Shown: one piece after another, positions 1,055 through 22,227 of the stretch
Layout of the letters: each line of letters starts with the position of its first letter
Position numbering within the stretch: position 1 is the first letter of the stretch
IMG/VR virus record: IMGVR_UViG_3300042398_000264
Coordinates: 1-25,315 of that record
Origin: a virus
Length of the DNA stretch: 25,315 bases
Strand: one strand, 5' to 3'
Program-made: the position numbers and the translations under genes
The notes under the pieces: model-generated
The model's input: only the letters and a program-made list of their open reading frames with translations
The model's database searches: none
What the model was told of the DNA's origin: nothing

Positions 1055-2640
1055 ATTCGTTTCACCACCTTGTAGAATTTGCCATCACGCTTGTAAGAAA
1101 TTAACTTAGGTGGATCCGATTCATTCATCTGTGCAACTAAATATGTCAACGGCACTACCGCCTGATCAATACCAGACAGTACTGCCCCAGATTGACGTGC
1201 AATGTCATGCAACAATTGAATGGCTTTGTTACCCGCAAAGCCCTGATTAAGCACCGGTAGGTACTCTGTGATCGGTGGGTCAGTTAAGCCACCATAATAA
1301 GTCAACGCAATCATTTCGTTGCCACTAGCACGGCTGATGTGCTTGCGCCAATGCCAATCGGTCACAAGCATGTCCATGCCCTCCAGCCCCATGATGTCGT
1401 CCTGGCGTAGCACCAGTTTCTTTTCTGCCGTTGGCGGAAATTCATGGCCACAGTTCGGGCAAACCTTAGCAGAGATATGCACAATCTCATGGCATTCATC
1501 ACACACTTTTACCGGTGCCTCACCCTCGCCAGACCCACCCTTCTTGGGTGGTTGCACGTTGGTGATTGGACCGTGCATCTCAACCACTCCCGCAAAGTCA
1601 AGCACTAAACAATGATCGGTGTGACTCTTGGGGCGCATCCCACGCCCTGCCATCTGCACATAGAGCGACGCACTCATGGTCGGTCGTAGCATGGCAATCA
1701 AGTCAATGTCTGGGTAATCAAAACCTGTAGTCAACACATTGGCATTGGTCAGCGCACGGATGCGTCCGGCCTTAAACTCGGTCAGCATCCGGTCACGCTC
1801 AGCCTTGGGGGTATCGCCTGTCACACAGGCGGCAGAAACGCCCTGGTCAATTAGCTCTTGGCAGACGTGCTGCGCGTGTTTGACACCAGCGCAAAAGAAT
1901 AGCCAAGCTTTGCGGTCAGCGGCAAGTTTGATGACTTCACGCACAACCGCAATATTCTTGTCTTGGTTATCTACCGCGGCTTGCAACTCAGCCTCGATAT
2001 ACTCGCCACCACGCTTGTGTACGGCACTTACGTCAAAGCGCTCGGACGTCACTTTACTGCGCAACGTCGCCAAATATTTTTTATAAACCAATTCCTCAAT
2101 GCTAATTGGTTCAATCAATGCATCAAACAATGCTGGCTTATCCGTGATTAAACCGTGCCCAAGGCGGTATGGCGTGGCAGTCAGCCCTACCACCCTAAGA
2201 CTGGGATTAATCGTTTGTAGGTCGTTTAAAAGGGTTCGATATCCGCCCTCGTCCTTGTGGCTCACTAGGTGACACTCGTCCACAATTACTAAGTCAACGT
2301 GGCCAAGTTGTTCTGCCTTAGTCCTAACCGATTGAATGCCGGCAAAGGTAATTGGCTCACCTAATTGACGCTTACCAATCCCTGCGCTATAAATGCCCAA
2401 AGGCGCTCCCTTCCAATGGAGTCTCATTTTCTCGGCATTCTGAACAATCAATTCCTTAACGTGCGTCAACATAAGAATTTTTGTTTTTGGCCAAGATTGC
2501 AGCGCGTCCTTACACAGCGCCGCAACAATGTGGCTCTTCCCCGACCCAGTTGGGAGGACCAGGCACGGGTTACCAGTTGGGGTCTTGTTAAACCAAGCGT
2601 ATAACTGGTCTATCGTGCGCTGTTGGTAGTCACGAAGCAT
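1048..2640 (-). CDS. superfamily 2 DNA/RNA helicase (DEAD/DEAH, Res-type)
   Basis: 530 residues. Motif I is LPTGSGKS (about 29-36), motif II is DECH (121-124), motif III is LTATPYR (about 153-159), and a C-terminal helicase domain holds QMAGRGMR (motif VI). A zinc ribbon follows (CDECHEIVHIS then CPNCGHEFP, two CxxC pairs), then an unassigned C-terminal region of about 130 residues. The family consists of ATP-driven translocases with UvsW/type III restriction-like cores, used by phages in replication fork remodelling or recombination. The start ATG overlaps the methyltransferase stop (TAATG), and the stop overlaps the nuclease start. Confidence 0.92.
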   Translation of the reverse strand: MLRDYQQRTIDQLYAWFNKTPTGNPCLVLPTGSGKSHIVAALCKDALQSWPKTKILMLTHVKELIVQNAEKMRLHWKGAPLGIYSAGIGKRQLGEPITFAGIQSVRTKAEQLGHVDLVIVDECHLVSHKDEGGYRTLLNDLQTINPSLRVVGLTATPYRLGHGLITDKPALFDALIEPISIEELVYKKYLATLRSKVTSERFDVSAVHKRGGEYIEAELQAAVDNQDKNIAVVREVIKLAADRKAWLFFCAGVKHAQHVCQELIDQGVSAACVTGDTPKAERDRMLTEFKAGRIRALTNANVLTTGFDYPDIDLIAMLRPTMSASLYVQMAGRGMRPKSHTDHCLVLDFAGVVEMHGPITNVQPPKKGGSGEGEAPVKVCDECHEIVHISAKVCPNCGHEFPPTAEKKLVLRQDDIMGLEGMDMLVTDWHWRKHISRASGNEMIALTYYGGLTDPPITEYLPVLNQGFAGNKAIQLLHDIARQSGAVLSGIDQAVVPLTYLVAQMNESDPPKLISYKRDGKFYKVVKRIW

Positions 2641-3366
2641 TATCTAAGCAGCTCCCATGCTGTTGCTGCCACTGATGGAACTTGTCCATTTCCAATGGCT
2701 TTAAGTCTGTCCACCCGAGCGGCCACATCATCAATATCTCTTGCGCTGCCAACGGCATTTTCATGTTGTATTTGCGGGCGTAATGATATTGAGGACGATT
2801 TTGATGTCCCGCTTCGTTTTTGTCCCCTTGCCTTTTTAATGTTTCTAATTTGCCCGTCGCTTTCCAATCCGTTGCCGTTGGTGTAGGCCAATATCCAAAT
2901 CCTTTTTCGATGGTGACAAGCCCCAATGTCATCTGCGCCCAACACTCCCCATTTTGCATCAAACCCCATTGAGGCCAAGTCTGCAAGGACAGTTCCAAGT
3001 CCTCGAATAGTGAGCATTGGACTGTTTTCCACAAAAACGTATCTAGGTCTAACCTCGCCAATAATCCGTGCCATTTCTCGCCACATACCTGAACGCTCTC
3101 CGGTAATTCCCGCCCCCCCCCCGCTGCGCTAATGTCTTGGCAGGGAAACCCGCCAGATACAACGTCAACAATTCCTCGCCACGGCTTTCCGTCAAAGGTT
3201 TGTACGTCATCCCAAATCGGGAAAGGCGGGAGAATTTTGTCATTTTGTCGGGCGCACAATACGCTTGCTGGGTATTGTTCCCACTCAACGGCGCAGACGG
3301 TTCTCCATCCGAGAAGGTGTCCCCCAAGTATTCCTCCACCAGCACCTGCGAAAAGAGCCAACTCAT
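2630..3366 (-). CDS. putative overlapping reading frame inside the methyltransferase gene
   Basis: A second frame, shifted relative to the methyltransferase, starts at an ATG at 3366 with GGAG 7 nt upstream. That Shine-Dalgarno lies within the first codons of the methyltransferase. It runs MSWLFSQVLVEEYLGDTF... to LYLAGFPAKTLAQ, is broken at the same G10 tract, and continues in the frame containing CGEKWHGLLARLDLDTFLWK, WPQWGLMQNGECW, YWPTPTATDWK and WPLGWTDLKPLEMDKF, to a stop at 2630. One added G rejoins it as an open frame of about 245 codons. I recall phage and metagenome proteins with these same motifs ('LFSQALVEEYS', 'LTESRGEELLT', 'GWTDLKPLE.DKF') as hypothetical or methylase-associated proteins. 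Function is unknown; it could be a conserved shadow rather than a translated gene. Confidence 0.45.
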
Positions 3367-3379
3367 TTAAGTTCTCCAT
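2640..3379 (-). CDS. cytosine-C5 DNA methyltransferase, interrupted by a frameshift at a G10 tract
   Basis: The gene starts at the ATG at 3379 (TAATG overlap with the nuclease gene) and should end with the TAA at 2640. The first part has motif I LFAGAGGGILGG and motif IV GGFPCQDIS with catalytic Cys80. Just after, at the G10 tract (3113-3122), the frame is lost. The rest continues in another frame: MWREMARIIGEVRPRYVF, VENSP (motif VI), HHRKRIWILAY (motif VIII) and LKAIGNGQVPSVAATAW (motif X). Eleven G (or eight) would join the parts as ISAAGGGAGITGERSG, which is the family consensus around this point. As read the enzyme is not made intact unless slippage occurs. The region between motifs VIII and X is short for a target-recognition domain. 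Probable role: self-methylation against host restriction. Confidence 0.85.
3113..3122. repeat. C10/G10 homopolymer tract at the methyltransferase frameshift
   Basis: Ten C on the + strand (G10 in the coding strand), immediately followed by C and GGG in the coding direction. It sits between motif IV and motif VI of the methyltransferase. A tract of 11 or 8 G restores both overlapping reading frames. Such tracts are classic slipped-strand mispairing sites and also classic assembly or sequencing errors; the sequence alone cannot separate these. Confidence 0.85.
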
Positions 3380-4420: not shown

Positions 4421-4453
4421 TGCCCCCAACCTTATGGTCAGGGGCATTTTTTT
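4421..4453 (+). terminator. hairpin plus T7 tract, terminator-like on the + strand
   Basis: TGCCCC (4421-4426) pairs with GGGGCA (4441-4446), extended by an inner ACC/GGT pairing (4429-4431 with 4436-4438), and is followed by seven T (4447-4453). It reads as an intrinsic terminator only in the rightward direction, although the surrounding genes run leftward. It lies in the 53-nt gap between the PP-loop gene and the nuclease gene. It may block antisense transcription, or act as an mRNA hairpin in the leftward transcript. Confidence 0.45.
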
Positions 4454-5309
4454 AATCTGTCGTGTAAACTTCGCAAGACTCGGAACAACCACCGTCTTGG
4501 TAAAGGTCTAACTGCTGTGGTGCGCGTCGATCCTCATCCGCACTTTTAATTGCCATCTCGCGCAACATTTTGACCGACGTATGCCCCCTAAAAAACACGC
4601 GATCAGGAGCATCGTCATACTTTGCAAATTCAGCACCTACCCTTGGGTATTGTTTTTCCATCCGTTCAAAAAAATCAAATTGGCTTGGGTCTTCGTTGTG
4701 TAACATAATTAATTTGTTAAAACTTTTTTTCCAGCAAGTTTTGCAATTGCCTTGATGTTCTAGCAGTTGCAAGTCAAACGCTTGGTCTTCCCACCAATCC
4801 AACACATCTTGTTTGTCAGTGGGAAACCAATGCACTAATGGATATATGACTTGTCTATCAACCGAATCTTTGACCCGCCGCACCTCGTCCGTGCGAATAC
4901 CAATTGCCAACTCGTAATCCCATTTTGTCCAGCCAATTGATTTCATGTAATGTTCAATTGGATATCGTTTTAAGTTGCGGGTGCATTGCGGCGATTGCAT
5001 ATTGGCAATGCCGTACTTCTCAATCATTGACTCAAAAGGCTCGGCATTGCGCGACGCAGTATCAAATGTGACGACCTTATGAGTAATACCGTTCCCAGCG
5101 CCTGAATGCGTAATTGCTTCAATCCAAACTGTATTGAATCCAAAGTGCGTATCGCAATCATGCACAAACTGTAAAGTTGCTTCGTTCTCAAAGCCAGTGT
5201 TAGCAAATATGACTTTTATCTCGTATTGATCAGAGTATTTGTCCAATAACATCTTCGTCATATAGCCTGATGTACGACCACCGCTAAAAGAAACAAGCAA
5301 TTTTTTCAT
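4452..5309 (-). CDS. PP-loop ATPase, phosphoadenosine phosphosulfate reductase family
   Basis: 285 residues from the ATG at 5309 (GGAA about 7 nt upstream); a TTG four codons earlier is less likely. The N terminus LLVSFSGGRTSGYM carries the SGGxTS PP-loop (residues 9-14) that binds ATP and releases pyrophosphate. Cysteines in QSPQCTRNLK, GNCKTCWKK and GGCSESCEV could hold an Fe-S cluster, as in DndC-like members. The family includes PAPS reductases and the sulfur-transfer enzymes of DNA phosphorothioation; phage members have no settled function. A DNA- or nucleotide-modifying role is possible beside the methyltransferase. It is the only gene in the operon isolated by two hairpin-containing gaps. 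Confidence 0.82.
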   Translation of the reverse strand: MKKLLVSFSGGRTSGYMTKMLLDKYSDQYEIKVIFANTGFENEATLQFVHDCDTHFGFNTVWIEAITHSGAGNGITHKVVTFDTASRNAEPFESMIEKYGIANMQSPQCTRNLKRYPIEHYMKSIGWTKWDYELAIGIRTDEVRRVKDSVDRQVIYPLVHWFPTDKQDVLDWWEDQAFDLQLLEHQGNCKTCWKKSFNKLIMLHNEDPSQFDFFERMEKQYPRVGAEFAKYDDAPDRVFFRGHTSVKMLREMAIKSADEDRRAPQQLDLYQDGGCSESCEVYTTD

Positions 5310-5322
5310 TTTGTTTTCCAAT

Positions 5323-17791: not shown

Positions 17792-19765
17792 ATGGCAGTC
17801 AATCTTTCCCCAGTTGGCGGCGTTGCCGCACAATTTTTTGATAATAACGGTGTAATTCTGACCGGCGGTAAGATTTACACTTACACTGCTGGGTCTTCTA
17901 CACCGCAGACAACATACACAAGCAGCAGCGGTAACACAGCCCACAGCAACCCTATTATTCTTGACGCATCAGGGCGTGTGCCTAGCGGTGAGATTTGGTT
18001 GACAGATGGACTGTCGTACAAGTTTCTTCTTAAAGACGCAAATGACGTATTGATCGGCACTTATGACAATATTGTTGGCATTAACGCCAATTTTATTAAT
18101 TACACCGGTGAGCAAGAGATTCAGACGGCGACTGCCGGCCAGACCGTCTTTACGCTGACCACCATGCAATACCAACCAGGCACTAATAGCCTGTCGGTGT
18201 TTGTGGACGGTGTAAACCAGTACGGTCCAGGCGCTCAGTACGCCTACGTTGAAACTAGCAGCACAGTCATTACTTTTGTGACCGGTTTGCACGTTGGGGC
18301 TTCGGTTAAGTTTACGACCGCCACAATTAACTCATCGTCTTACGGTGATGCGTCGCAAGTTGGGTTTACTGGATTTAAAGGTCAAACAGGTAACGTCCAA
18401 GACTTAGCCGACAATGATGGTTCTGATTGGGTTGGCTTTTTACAAGAAGGCACCGGTGCGGTAGCTATCTCTGTTCAAGACAAACTGCGTCAAGTTGTTA
18501 ACGTCAATGATTTTGGTGCTGTCGGTGATGGCACAACAGACGATTTAGCAGCAATCCAAGCTGCAATTGATGCTGTTGGCTTGAGTGGCGGCGGTATTGT
18601 TCAATTGCAAGCTGGGTTTTACGCAATCTCAGATCAGTTAACCATCAACTATGATGACGTCACGATTCAAGGTGCTGGCAACAATACTTCGTGGATTAAA
18701 GTCACTGGCGCAAACAAAAACGGCATTAAAGTAAATGGCGTTTCTGGTACTCCAATTCGCAACATTATGTTGCGCGATTTCAGCATCATTTTGGCCACCG
18801 CAGCGACTGCCAATTCAATTGGTTTGGATTTAAATTTCACAGTATTTGCAATTGTTGAGCGTATGCAAATCCACGACTTTTTGTTTGGGTTCCGCATGGA
18901 AGGCGCAACTAATTCGCAGATTACTAAAGTCGGCTCAACCTACACAGGCAGCACAAACAATTTTATTGGGTTTGTAATTTATGGCGGCGCGTCAGGTTCG
19001 GCGAGCGCCAACGCATCAAGCATATTGCGCGATTGTTATTCGTCTGGCGTGTCTGGGTTAACCGGTCAGATTGGTTTTAAAGTGTACGGCTCATATATGT
19101 CGGACATTCAATTTGACAATTGCGAAACTGCTTTGACCAACTATGGTTATTCTCTGGATTATACGTCTGCGCCTAACTTCAACGTGGACATAATCATCCG
19201 CAACCCGATTGTGGACCGATATTTTGTGCAGGGCATCCTTGTTGATGGTTTGCCGTCCAACGGCATTTTGCAAATTATCGGTGGGTATAGCAACCCCGAC
19301 ACACTTGGTGTTGCTGCACAAAATATTTATCTTGATACTTGTCTTGGTGCTGTTAACGTAGTCGGGCATGAGTTTATGGCTCTTACAAACACCATATATA
19401 CAGACGGTTTTTATGCTGATAATTGTTCAGGATTAACGGTGTCTGGATGCGTGTTTAGTATGCTAGATAAAGGCATTTATATGAATAGCTGCGGGTACAG
19501 CGTAATCGCGAACAACATCTTTAAAGGTGGCAACCCGTCAGCGTTTAGCAAGATGGTTGAAATTATTGGCGGTGCTAGAGTCATGGTCAACGGCAACTCA
19601 TTTGACGGTGCAACTGAAGGTGTAGTCATTGACGTAACATCTAGCGGCTGCGGTATTGTTGGAAATACTGCAAACGTATCAACTGTTGCAACACGTTACA
19701 CAAACTCAGGCAGCGGCCCGATTGGTGGCGCAGATGGCTCAACTGGTCTTAACAGCGGAATTTAA
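17792..19765 (+). CDS. tail spike with pectate-lyase-like beta-helix
   Basis: 657 residues. The N terminus (SPVGGVAAQFFDNNGVILTG, GKIYTYTAGSSTPQTTYTSS, DASGRVPSGEIWLTDGLSYK) is a head- or tail-binding domain typical of podovirus spikes. From about residue 235, VNDFGAVGDGTTDDLAAIQA opens a pectate-lyase-3/P22-type right-handed beta-helix that fills the rest. Such spikes bind and often depolymerise surface polysaccharide. The catalytic residues cannot be assigned by eye. GGAG lies 7 nt before the ATG. Confidence 0.85.
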   Translation: MAVNLSPVGGVAAQFFDNNGVILTGGKIYTYTAGSSTPQTTYTSSSGNTAHSNPIILDASGRVPSGEIWLTDGLSYKFLLKDANDVLIGTYDNIVGINANFINYTGEQEIQTATAGQTVFTLTTMQYQPGTNSLSVFVDGVNQYGPGAQYAYVETSSTVITFVTGLHVGASVKFTTATINSSSYGDASQVGFTGFKGQTGNVQDLADNDGSDWVGFLQEGTGAVAISVQDKLRQVVNVNDFGAVGDGTTDDLAAIQAAIDAVGLSGGGIVQLQAGFYAISDQLTINYDDVTIQGAGNNTSWIKVTGANKNGIKVNGVSGTPIRNIMLRDFSIILATAATANSIGLDLNFTVFAIVERMQIHDFLFGFRMEGATNSQITKVGSTYTGSTNNFIGFVIYGGASGSASANASSILRDCYSSGVSGLTGQIGFKVYGSYMSDIQFDNCETALTNYGYSLDYTSAPNFNVDIIIRNPIVDRYFVQGILVDGLPSNGILQIIGGYSNPDTLGVAAQNIYLDTCLGAVNVVGHEFMALTNTIYTDGFYADNCSGLTVSGCVFSMLDKGIYMNSCGYSVIANNIFKGGNPSAFSKMVEIIGGARVMVNGNSFDGATEGVVIDVTSSGCGIVGNTANVSTVATRYTNSGSGPIGGADGSTGLNSGI

Positions 19766-20781: not shown

Positions 20782-22227
20782 ATGTTGACCAAAGTTTCAT
20801 ACTCAATGATAGATGGTGCGCCAATTAACGTCCTTGATTTTGGCGCAACTGGTGATGGGACTACAGATGATACTGTTGCTATTCAAGCCGCTTGGGCGTA
20901 TGCAATTTCTGTTGGCGGCGCTCGTATCCATGTTCCTGCTGGTACTTATTTAGTTACCTCTGCAATTAACATCACTGGTGCTGATAACGTAATATTTGAG
21001 GGCGATGGCGTAGATAACACTATCCTTACGTCAAACTCAACGACAGCCAATGTTTTTTATGATTCTGGTACTTCTGTATGGAGAACATTTAGAGATTTCT
21101 CGATTGCTTCTTCAGTAACACGAACCGCAGGAAGCTATTTTTATTTGACAGCAGAAAAACGTAGCTCATTTCAAAATTTAAAACTTACCGGACATTTTAA
21201 CGGGTTTAATTTTTTAGGATTTGAGCAGTGTTGGATGTATGCCGTATCAATAACTACGCCATCGGGGGCGGGCAGTTCTATTATTTTGGGGACACAAGGA
21301 ACAGCGGGTTCAGGTGCTAACATCATGTTGGATTCATTGTTTTTGCGAGGAAACAATGATATTACTCAAAATGCGCCTACCGGTCTATATGCGTTAAATA
21401 TCACCGACTGTGATGCAGTATTTGCCGTAAATTGTGACATTGGTGGGTTTGTTAACAATGATATGCTAATTGAACCAACGGTACGTTCAGCAAATCATCA
21501 TTTTACTCAATGTTTTTTTGACGCTACAAAAAGCTCAGACTGCGTAAAATTTGATGGCGTAGGAACTAAGCAACAAATTACCTTTAACGGGTGTTGGTTT
21601 TCATCAGCCGGAAAACTTACAAGCGGAAACGATGAAGCGTGTGGTGTTCGTGCGTTTAACGCAGGCACATACCAAGACATTATATTTTCTGGTTGCCGTT
21701 TTTATAATTCTTCAGGATCAGGTTTATTAGCAGAATCTACAAATTGCGATTTTACTCTTAGCGGTTGCAATTTTTATTTTAATAGTTCTGCTGCTGTTAC
21801 CAACCAATATGGTTTCTTTTGGGCCCCCGCTAGTGTTGGGTCAATAGGTCCAAATCTTACTGGCTGTCGCTCTGCTGGAAATGGTGGAGGCGGTTTTCGT
21901 TTTGACGCTAACGCTAGAAATTATTCGGTGGTAGGCTCTAACATCCAAGATGGGCTATCCAACGCAGGGTCGGGCGGCATTTTATCTAAGAACCCTGGCT
22001 ATAACCCAGTAACATCAACATTAAGCGTTACAGCTAGCCCATTTTCATACACCAACAATACTGGCGATACACAAACAGTTGTAATTGCTAGTGGCGCAGT
22101 TTCTGTTATTACTCTTAATGGCTTAGCTGTTGGTGCTGCAACAAATACTAGTGTTAGCGTTCCAAATGCAGGCACTATTGTCATAACTTATTCATCGCTC
22201 CCAACTGTTTTAGCTGTTGGAAATTAA
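20782..22227 (+). CDS. second tail spike, pectate-lyase-3 fold
   Basis: 481 residues. It begins MLTKVSYSMIDGAPINVLDF and goes straight into GATGDGTTDDTVAIQAA and ARIHVPAGTYLVTSAINITG, the start of a right-handed beta-helix, without the head-binding domain of the first spike. It may therefore attach to another spike or fibre in a branched complex. The gene looks more AT-rich than the coat gene, consistent with module exchange. Confidence 0.82.
   Translation: MLTKVSYSMIDGAPINVLDFGATGDGTTDDTVAIQAAWAYAISVGGARIHVPAGTYLVTSAINITGADNVIFEGDGVDNTILTSNSTTANVFYDSGTSVWRTFRDFSIASSVTRTAGSYFYLTAEKRSSFQNLKLTGHFNGFNFLGFEQCWMYAVSITTPSGAGSSIILGTQGTAGSGANIMLDSLFLRGNNDITQNAPTGLYALNITDCDAVFAVNCDIGGFVNNDMLIEPTVRSANHHFTQCFFDATKSSDCVKFDGVGTKQQITFNGCWFSSAGKLTSGNDEACGVRAFNAGTYQDIIFSGCRFYNSSGSGLLAESTNCDFTLSGCNFYFNSSAAVTNQYGFFWAPASVGSIGPNLTGCRSAGNGGGGFRFDANARNYSVVGSNIQDGLSNAGSGGILSKNPGYNPVTSTLSVTASPFSYTNNTGDTQTVVIASGAVSVITLNGLAVGAATNTSVSVPNAGTIVITYSSLPTVLAVGN

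Follow-up and report, generated by a model that had tools for sequence, protein, structure and literature searches.

Organization of the Locus

The stretch of DNA that we analyzed (25,315 nucleotides; hereafter the window) is a 25.3-kb viral contig whose genes include a terminase, a portal protein, a major head protein, tail-spike proteins, a primase/helicase, a Sak4-like protein, a Cas4-like exonuclease and a helicase. It also carries an auxiliary metabolic gene resembling phosphoadenosine phosphosulfate reductase (4452-5321, minus strand; PHROG 424, E 1e-54). Two tail-spike-like proteins (17792-19765 and 20782-22227, plus strand) match the same families (PHROGs 18522, 2234, 14558) and are possibly alternative receptor-binding spikes.

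On the minus strand, next to the helicase gene, lies a cytosine methyltransferase gene that contains two overlapping frames. The methyltransferase frame, M, opens with an ATG at 3379 (MENLNELALFAGAGGG...). The second frame, S, is in the +1 frame relative to M and opens with an ATG at 3366 (MSWLFSQVLVEEYLGD...), preceded at a distance of 7 nt by a Shine-Dalgarno-like GGAG (3374..3377) embedded in the opening codons of M; this second start and its GGAG are seen in the sequence just as originally predicted. The N-terminal half of M (3113..3379), delimited from the open reading frame list, PF00145 and PHROG 363, extends from motif I to the catalytic PCQ loop (MENLNELALFAGAGGGILGG...GGFPCQDISAA). 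Its C-terminal half (2640..3112; ENSPML ... RIWILAY ... RLKAIGNGQVP), the register of which we compared with relatives L008 to L011, continues up to motif VIII, followed by motif X, and its stop codon overlaps the start of the helicase gene. The N-terminal half of S (MSWLFSQVLVEEYLGD ... LTESRGEELLTLYLAGFPAKTLAQR; 3113..3366) lies in a frame that is conserved in relatives, and its C-terminal half (...CGEKWHGLLARLDLDTFLWKTVQCSLF...TWPQWGLMQNGECW...WPTPTATDW...EILMMWPLGWTDLKPLEMDKF; 2630..3112) is open and constrained in them.

Three further features of the minus strand recur throughout this analysis. A run of ten G (3113..3122) determines the register of the two frames; in relatives such a tract recurs, with varying length. 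A variable, target-recognition-like region (2741..2882) was delimited by a codon-position test and by module exchange in relatives, in which the S frame is constrained there and the M frame is free. Finally, a segment of S resembling motif IX, EILMMWPLGWTDLK (2699..2740; consensus LNPxWVEWLMGWPxGWTDL), overlaps the start of motif X of M.

By comparison with relatives, the window copy is one base out of register at the G10 tract, so the original prediction was correct in placing a single-base shift between the frames at this point. The C-terminal half of M, open at 3086-2640, is out of register with the N-terminal half, and the N-terminal half of S leaves its frame and reaches a stop at 3049. 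The 249-aa open reading frame at 2630-3379 is a chimera, the N-terminal half of M fused to the C-terminal half of S. The second frame had been predicted to run to 2630; S itself is real, but the open reading frame 2630-3379 is this chimera and not the second protein, and among the blocks assigned to the second frame, WPQWGLMQNGECW and WPLGWTDLKPLEMDKF belong to the C-terminal half of S.

Family Assignments

The two halves of M match PF00145 at 6e-10 and 1e-11, and the catalytic motifs I, IV (PCQ), VI (ENS), VIII and X of this family are all present. M also matches PHROG 363, and the M of a relative matches TIGR00675 over positions 4-185 of 329. For S, we found no credible match in Pfam or NCBIfam; the S of the window matches PHROG 1008 (labelled DNA methyltransferase), 26627 and 35493, in agreement with the earlier suggestion that relatives of the second frame are filed as hypothetical or methyltransferase proteins. 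PHROG 1008 is matched by all 49 of the 49 S relatives scanned. Altogether, matches of the S frame fall in PHROGs 1008, 26627, 35493, 27243, 31772 and 16143, and three S-matching PHROGs bear the label DNA methyltransferase, even though it is the overlapping frame and not the catalytic one that they match. S proteins are thus already in the databases, with names that say little or are borrowed. In Pseudomonas phage VB_PaD_phPA-G (L002, 1442-2170), the deposited coding sequence is the S frame, named "hypothetical protein", and the open M frame is unannotated.

Structure prediction with AlphaFold2 on S alone gave no confident fold (pLDDT 52 with 47 sequences and 59 with 83 sequences), which agrees with, but does not prove, the idea that S folds on a partner. 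A sequence/profile search of solved structures with S likewise returned nothing credible (best match 3nng, E 0.015).

The Second Frame Is a Coding Frame

Relatives were gathered twice, once by S and independently by an M profile alone. Across 62 distinct homologues, the S frame contains a mean of 0.13 stop codons, compared with 5.05 in synonymous-codon shuffles within each gene, and it is open across the whole gene in 56 of the 62; shuffled genes keep it open in about 0.2% of cases. As a control, the +2 frame shows no depletion of stops (15.3 observed, 13.2 shuffled). The same depletion is found in the viral set (0.04 stops and 5.2 when shuffled; n=78) and in the bacterial set collected with the M profile only (0.21 and 3.87; n=75), in which nearly all S stops lie at most about 20 codons from either end. 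The bacterial relatives include Pseudomonas, Acinetobacter, Enterobacterales, Akkermansia, Nitrosomonas and Patescibacteria. We had considered S as a phage-specific gene, and this is ruled out because bacterial relatives fetched via M alone also carry it.

Four-fold-degenerate sites of M provide a second line of evidence. We examined 73 conserved four-fold-degenerate columns in 37 genes with less than 80% M identity. In 40 of these columns, the third base is almost invariant (p<0.001 each, values that are inexact because the genes share ancestry, the free columns serving as the internal control), with a mean top-base frequency of 0.77 compared with 0.46 expected. The frozen base varies between columns, and free columns are interleaved with frozen ones, particularly near GGFPCQDISAAGKGAG, where the G tract sits. 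Since third positions of M are second positions of S, this freeze represents constraint on the amino acids of S. Both checks that had been proposed for the second frame, stop codons in homologues and variation at synonymous sites of M, thus favor S, and the suspected conservation of the overlap is borne out.

The S start codon is ATG in 60 of 60 genes and that of M is ATG, TTG or GTG; in the commonest spacing, S begins four bases 3' of M, as in ATGAATG. In the relative L008, S has about 245 codons and M about 246, so that the overlap takes up nearly the whole gene. No locus among the 80 fetched with an S profile has S without M. We conclude that the overlapping protein S is real, with next to no room for doubt. 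A literature search, in which subscription journals were barely covered, found no account of this overlap.

An S frame is also found in distant phage enzymes, namely those of Mycobacterium phage SG4, Sulfitobacter phiGT1, Porphyromonas, Stenotrophomonas S72, Pseudomonas Marin and Bacteroides BF1-TP2. In these, stops occur in the N-terminal part of S, and roughly the last 170-220 codons are open. From this distribution, the core of S looks older, and its N-terminal extension appears to be a later overprint in the subfamily of the window; it is this extension that makes the overlap nearly complete.

The Poly-G Tract and the Register of Both Frames

When viral contigs were searched for the tract with a DNA pattern, at least 120 matches were obtained, and among the matches listed there are at least 102 distinct viral loci with 8 or more G. 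Among these 102 loci listed, 74 are in register, and 18 and 10 are out of register in the two directions; in 25 of the 28 out-of-register copies listed, the two frames downstream of the tract each stay open over more than 100 codons. When relatives are not selected for the tract, 8 or more G are found at 19 of 137 viral loci and at none of 78 bacterial loci, and most relatives lack a long tract, having 2-5 G at the site. Within the tract-selected contigs, runs of 9 or more G occur 112 times at the site and 7 times elsewhere in 1.04 Mb. There are close relatives that are one G apart with no other gap (98.0% identity over 747 nt, 97.2% over 496 nt). We found no near-identical contigs that differ in G length, the closest length variants being 97-98% identical; in the pair L322 and L350, which are 99.95% identical, the tract differs by substitution and not by length.

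Individual copies illustrate several states of the locus. The genes of Salmonella phage S9-5 and of the E. coli PT62 prophage are examples that are in register. The tracts of L056 and L097 are out of register, and L097 is shifted the other way from the window, its S N-terminal half running into the C-terminal half of M, the mirror image of the window chimera. In five bacterial relatives (L225, L233, L260, L280 and L282), the M frame is cut short (41-182 codons) and there is no long G tract; these are possible frameshifts or decaying copies.

Because M and S both pass through the tract, any slip by a number of bases not divisible by three disables the two proteins together. The tract is a homopolymer in a coding region and occurs in both registers among otherwise intact relatives, as expected of a contingency gene, and these comparisons suggest that it is probably a phase-variation switch. 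Alternatively, the out-of-register copies could be homopolymer errors of assembly or sequencing, an explanation that bears on the tract only. The sequences are metagenome assemblies, and the sole other contig of the window virus that we found to cover the tract (L007, = L391) is identical over 2,100 bases, G10 included, both of which would suit such errors. Against them stand the recurrence of the long tract itself at this one site, the shifts of register in both directions, and the close relatives separated by a single G with no other indel. We regard error as the less likely account of the out-of-register copies, although one with a real share of the probability.

Division of Labor between the Two Frames

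The two frames are not constrained alike along the gene. In the catalytic region, substitutions between closer pairs fall mainly at the third position of M (55%), and in the stretch that separates motif VIII from the C-terminal block they concentrate at the first position of M, which is the wobble position of S. Over 16 independent pairs, substitutions in this variable region number 233, 47 and 35 at M positions 1, 2 and 3, placing 74% of the 315 at the S wobble position (p=1e-51); in the same pairs, S identity there is 0.87-1.00 and M identity 0.48-0.93. Since the substitutions fall on its wobble position, S is the constrained protein in the variable region, where M is under little constraint.

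The S variable region is 32-144 residues long and often contains repeated [WLF]PTP-type units. We compared 2050 pairs with catalytic segments of 88-99% identity, and in 86% of them the two S variable regions bear no relation to each other. In addition, 13 pairs have an S module in common on catalytic parts that have diverged. Judged by these patterns, the S variable region behaves like a target-recognition domain with exchangeable modules.

Across 33 bacterial genomes, the PF00145 genes are of two kinds. The first comprises 18 methyltransferases with an ordinary C-terminal half that includes motif IX (e.g., RRLTPRECARLMGFP; that of the Dcm-like enzymes is missed by our strict pattern and visible in the alignment), and these have 6-20 stops in the +1 frame and no S motif. 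The second comprises 10 short methyltransferases in which motif IX is absent from M in 10 of 10 and the +1 frame is wholly open; the S signature EWLMGWP is present in 8 of the 10. In the other two short enzymes, L427 and L428, M still has a recognition-like region, and it is the +1 frame that contains a segment like motif IX (in L427, the frames are 1462-2319 and 1481-2305 on the plus strand, with a +1 open reading frame of 274 aa and the segment IGSERLTIMGFAPDWM / SERLTIMGFAPDW), the same division of motifs as described for M.EcoHK31I (PMC3404938).

We also compared S with motif IX directly. A canonical motif-IX HMM has its best match on EWLMGWP in 134 of 185 S proteins, matches that are individually not significant, and its mean scores on S exceed those of reversed, shuffled and M-frame controls. 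With a simple motif-IX matrix, about half of the S proteins are matched at the right position, but the M frame scores higher. The resemblance of the S consensus to motif IX is suggestive only.

A Probable Split Cytosine Methyltransferase

We propose that the locus encodes a split C5-cytosine methyltransferase, composed of a catalytic subunit, M, and a specificity subunit, S, and we consider this reading probable. M would supply motifs I-VIII and X. S, translated in the +1 frame from its own ATG and Shine-Dalgarno sequence, would contribute a conserved core, the variable region with its exchangeable recognition modules, and the C-terminal motif-IX-like segment. The two subunits presumably assemble into an active enzyme with a sequence specificity conferred by S, and this enzyme would methylate the phage DNA, most likely protecting it from host restriction. 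In many viruses, the poly-G forms the linker between the N- and C-terminal halves of both proteins, and gain or loss of one G puts both subunits out of register together, so that the tract probably acts as an on/off switch that could be reversed; the window copy, with G10, would be in the off register.

S could instead be a genuine overprinted protein that is tied to the methyltransferase gene and has another job, such as a regulator of M, a toxin-like protein or an anti-defense protein; the original prediction leaned toward such roles and toward a phage gene. That S is conserved and under selection would fit, as would the fact that searches gave it no fold or named function. However, S is present exactly where M is without motif IX and a recognition region and absent where M has them, and it provides the sole constrained reading of the variable region, with modules that recombine. 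It is also as common in bacterial relatives as in phages, which disposes of a phage-only gene. Never seen without M, S behaves like the missing specificity half of the enzyme, and a separate job for it seems improbable.

Less probable still is that ribosomal or transcriptional slippage joins motifs I-VIII of M to the recognition region in the S frame, with S not made on its own. This would account for a recognition-like part in one frame and a catalytic part in the other, and the window's own open reading frame is such an M-S chimera; yet the S ATG occupies a fixed place in 60 of 60 genes, the N-terminal half of S, far upstream of any useful shift, is equally constrained, and reaching motif X would require a second shift back. 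Moreover, the slippery tract comes before the ENS motif and motif VIII in the gene, and most relatives lack it. Least credible of all, at the margin of consideration, is a +1 frame that is open merely through base composition and the conservation of M and is not translated: GC-rich genes do carry long spurious +1 open reading frames and S similarity in part tracks M similarity, but the codon-shuffle and +2 controls, the frozen four-fold sites, and the S-frame wobble pattern with M as a passenger in the variable region refute it, barring some non-coding constraint that follows the S frame with a period of three bases.

We see roughly even chances that the split methyltransferase constitutes a large, essentially unrecognized class of methyltransferases of phages and bacteria, in which catalytic and recognition subunits are encoded in two frames of the same DNA, recombination in the overlapping frame exchanges recognition modules, and one slip of a single poly-G tract phase-varies both subunits in many phages. 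To our knowledge, full-length overlap of two conserved proteins on the same strand is rare in cellular and double-stranded DNA phage genomes. The overlap described here is widespread and apparently old, and so offers hundreds of natural replicates for the study of dual coding. It would explain many proteins that are filed as hypothetical or as 'DNA methyltransferase' (e.g., PHROG 1008), and it would serve as a warning that, of the two frames, gene callers list just one. Orphan phage methyltransferases might then appear inactive when M is cloned without S. If specificity is set by the S variable region, these genes are a store of recognition modules, and if the tract switches, phages gain one-base on/off control of a protective modification.

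Comparison with Known Systems

The closest parallel by architecture is M.EcoHK31I, for which Lee et al. are said to have found, in 1995, that both polypeptides are required in vitro and that beta is encoded inside alpha in another frame. M.EcoHK31I (YGGCCR), with its alpha and beta polypeptides, and M.EaeI likewise form one C5 methyltransferase from two polypeptides, a likeness of architecture; in the M.EcoHK31I type, the second polypeptide reportedly lies within the first gene in another frame, as does S here. C5 methyltransferases made of two polypeptides, M.EcoHK31I and M.AquI, are known, the recognition region of M.EcoHK31I being assigned to its large subunit, and the second polypeptide of M.AquI carrying the distal recognition region and motif IX (PMC3404938). 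In M.EcoHK31I, motif IX lies in the small polypeptide and not in the large one; here it is absent from M, and the resemblance of a segment of S to it is suggestive. In contrast to M.EcoHK31I, the variable region of the present enzymes is constrained in the overlapping S frame and not in the large polypeptide, S overlaps nearly the whole of M, the arrangement is spread over phages and bacteria, and there is a poly-G tract in many viruses. M.AquI (CYCGRG), also with alpha and beta polypeptides, is another naturally divided C5 methyltransferase, with recognition and motif IX in the second polypeptide; its second subunit also contains motif X, whereas here it is M that has motif X, with S written across M in a different frame.

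A protein hidden out of frame in a phage methylase gene is also known from the ShiLan element, an out-of-frame HNH endonuclease in actinophage DNA methylases (PMC11855218). That element, however, is an inserted homing element in the third frame, whereas S, which occupies the +1 frame, is not inserted and extends across the conserved core of the methyltransferase. With regard to the tract, bacteria have phase-variable poly-G methyltransferase genes in which a homopolymer in the coding region sets the register. The candidate switch described here differs from these in being viral and in that one tract sets the register of two overlapping proteins.
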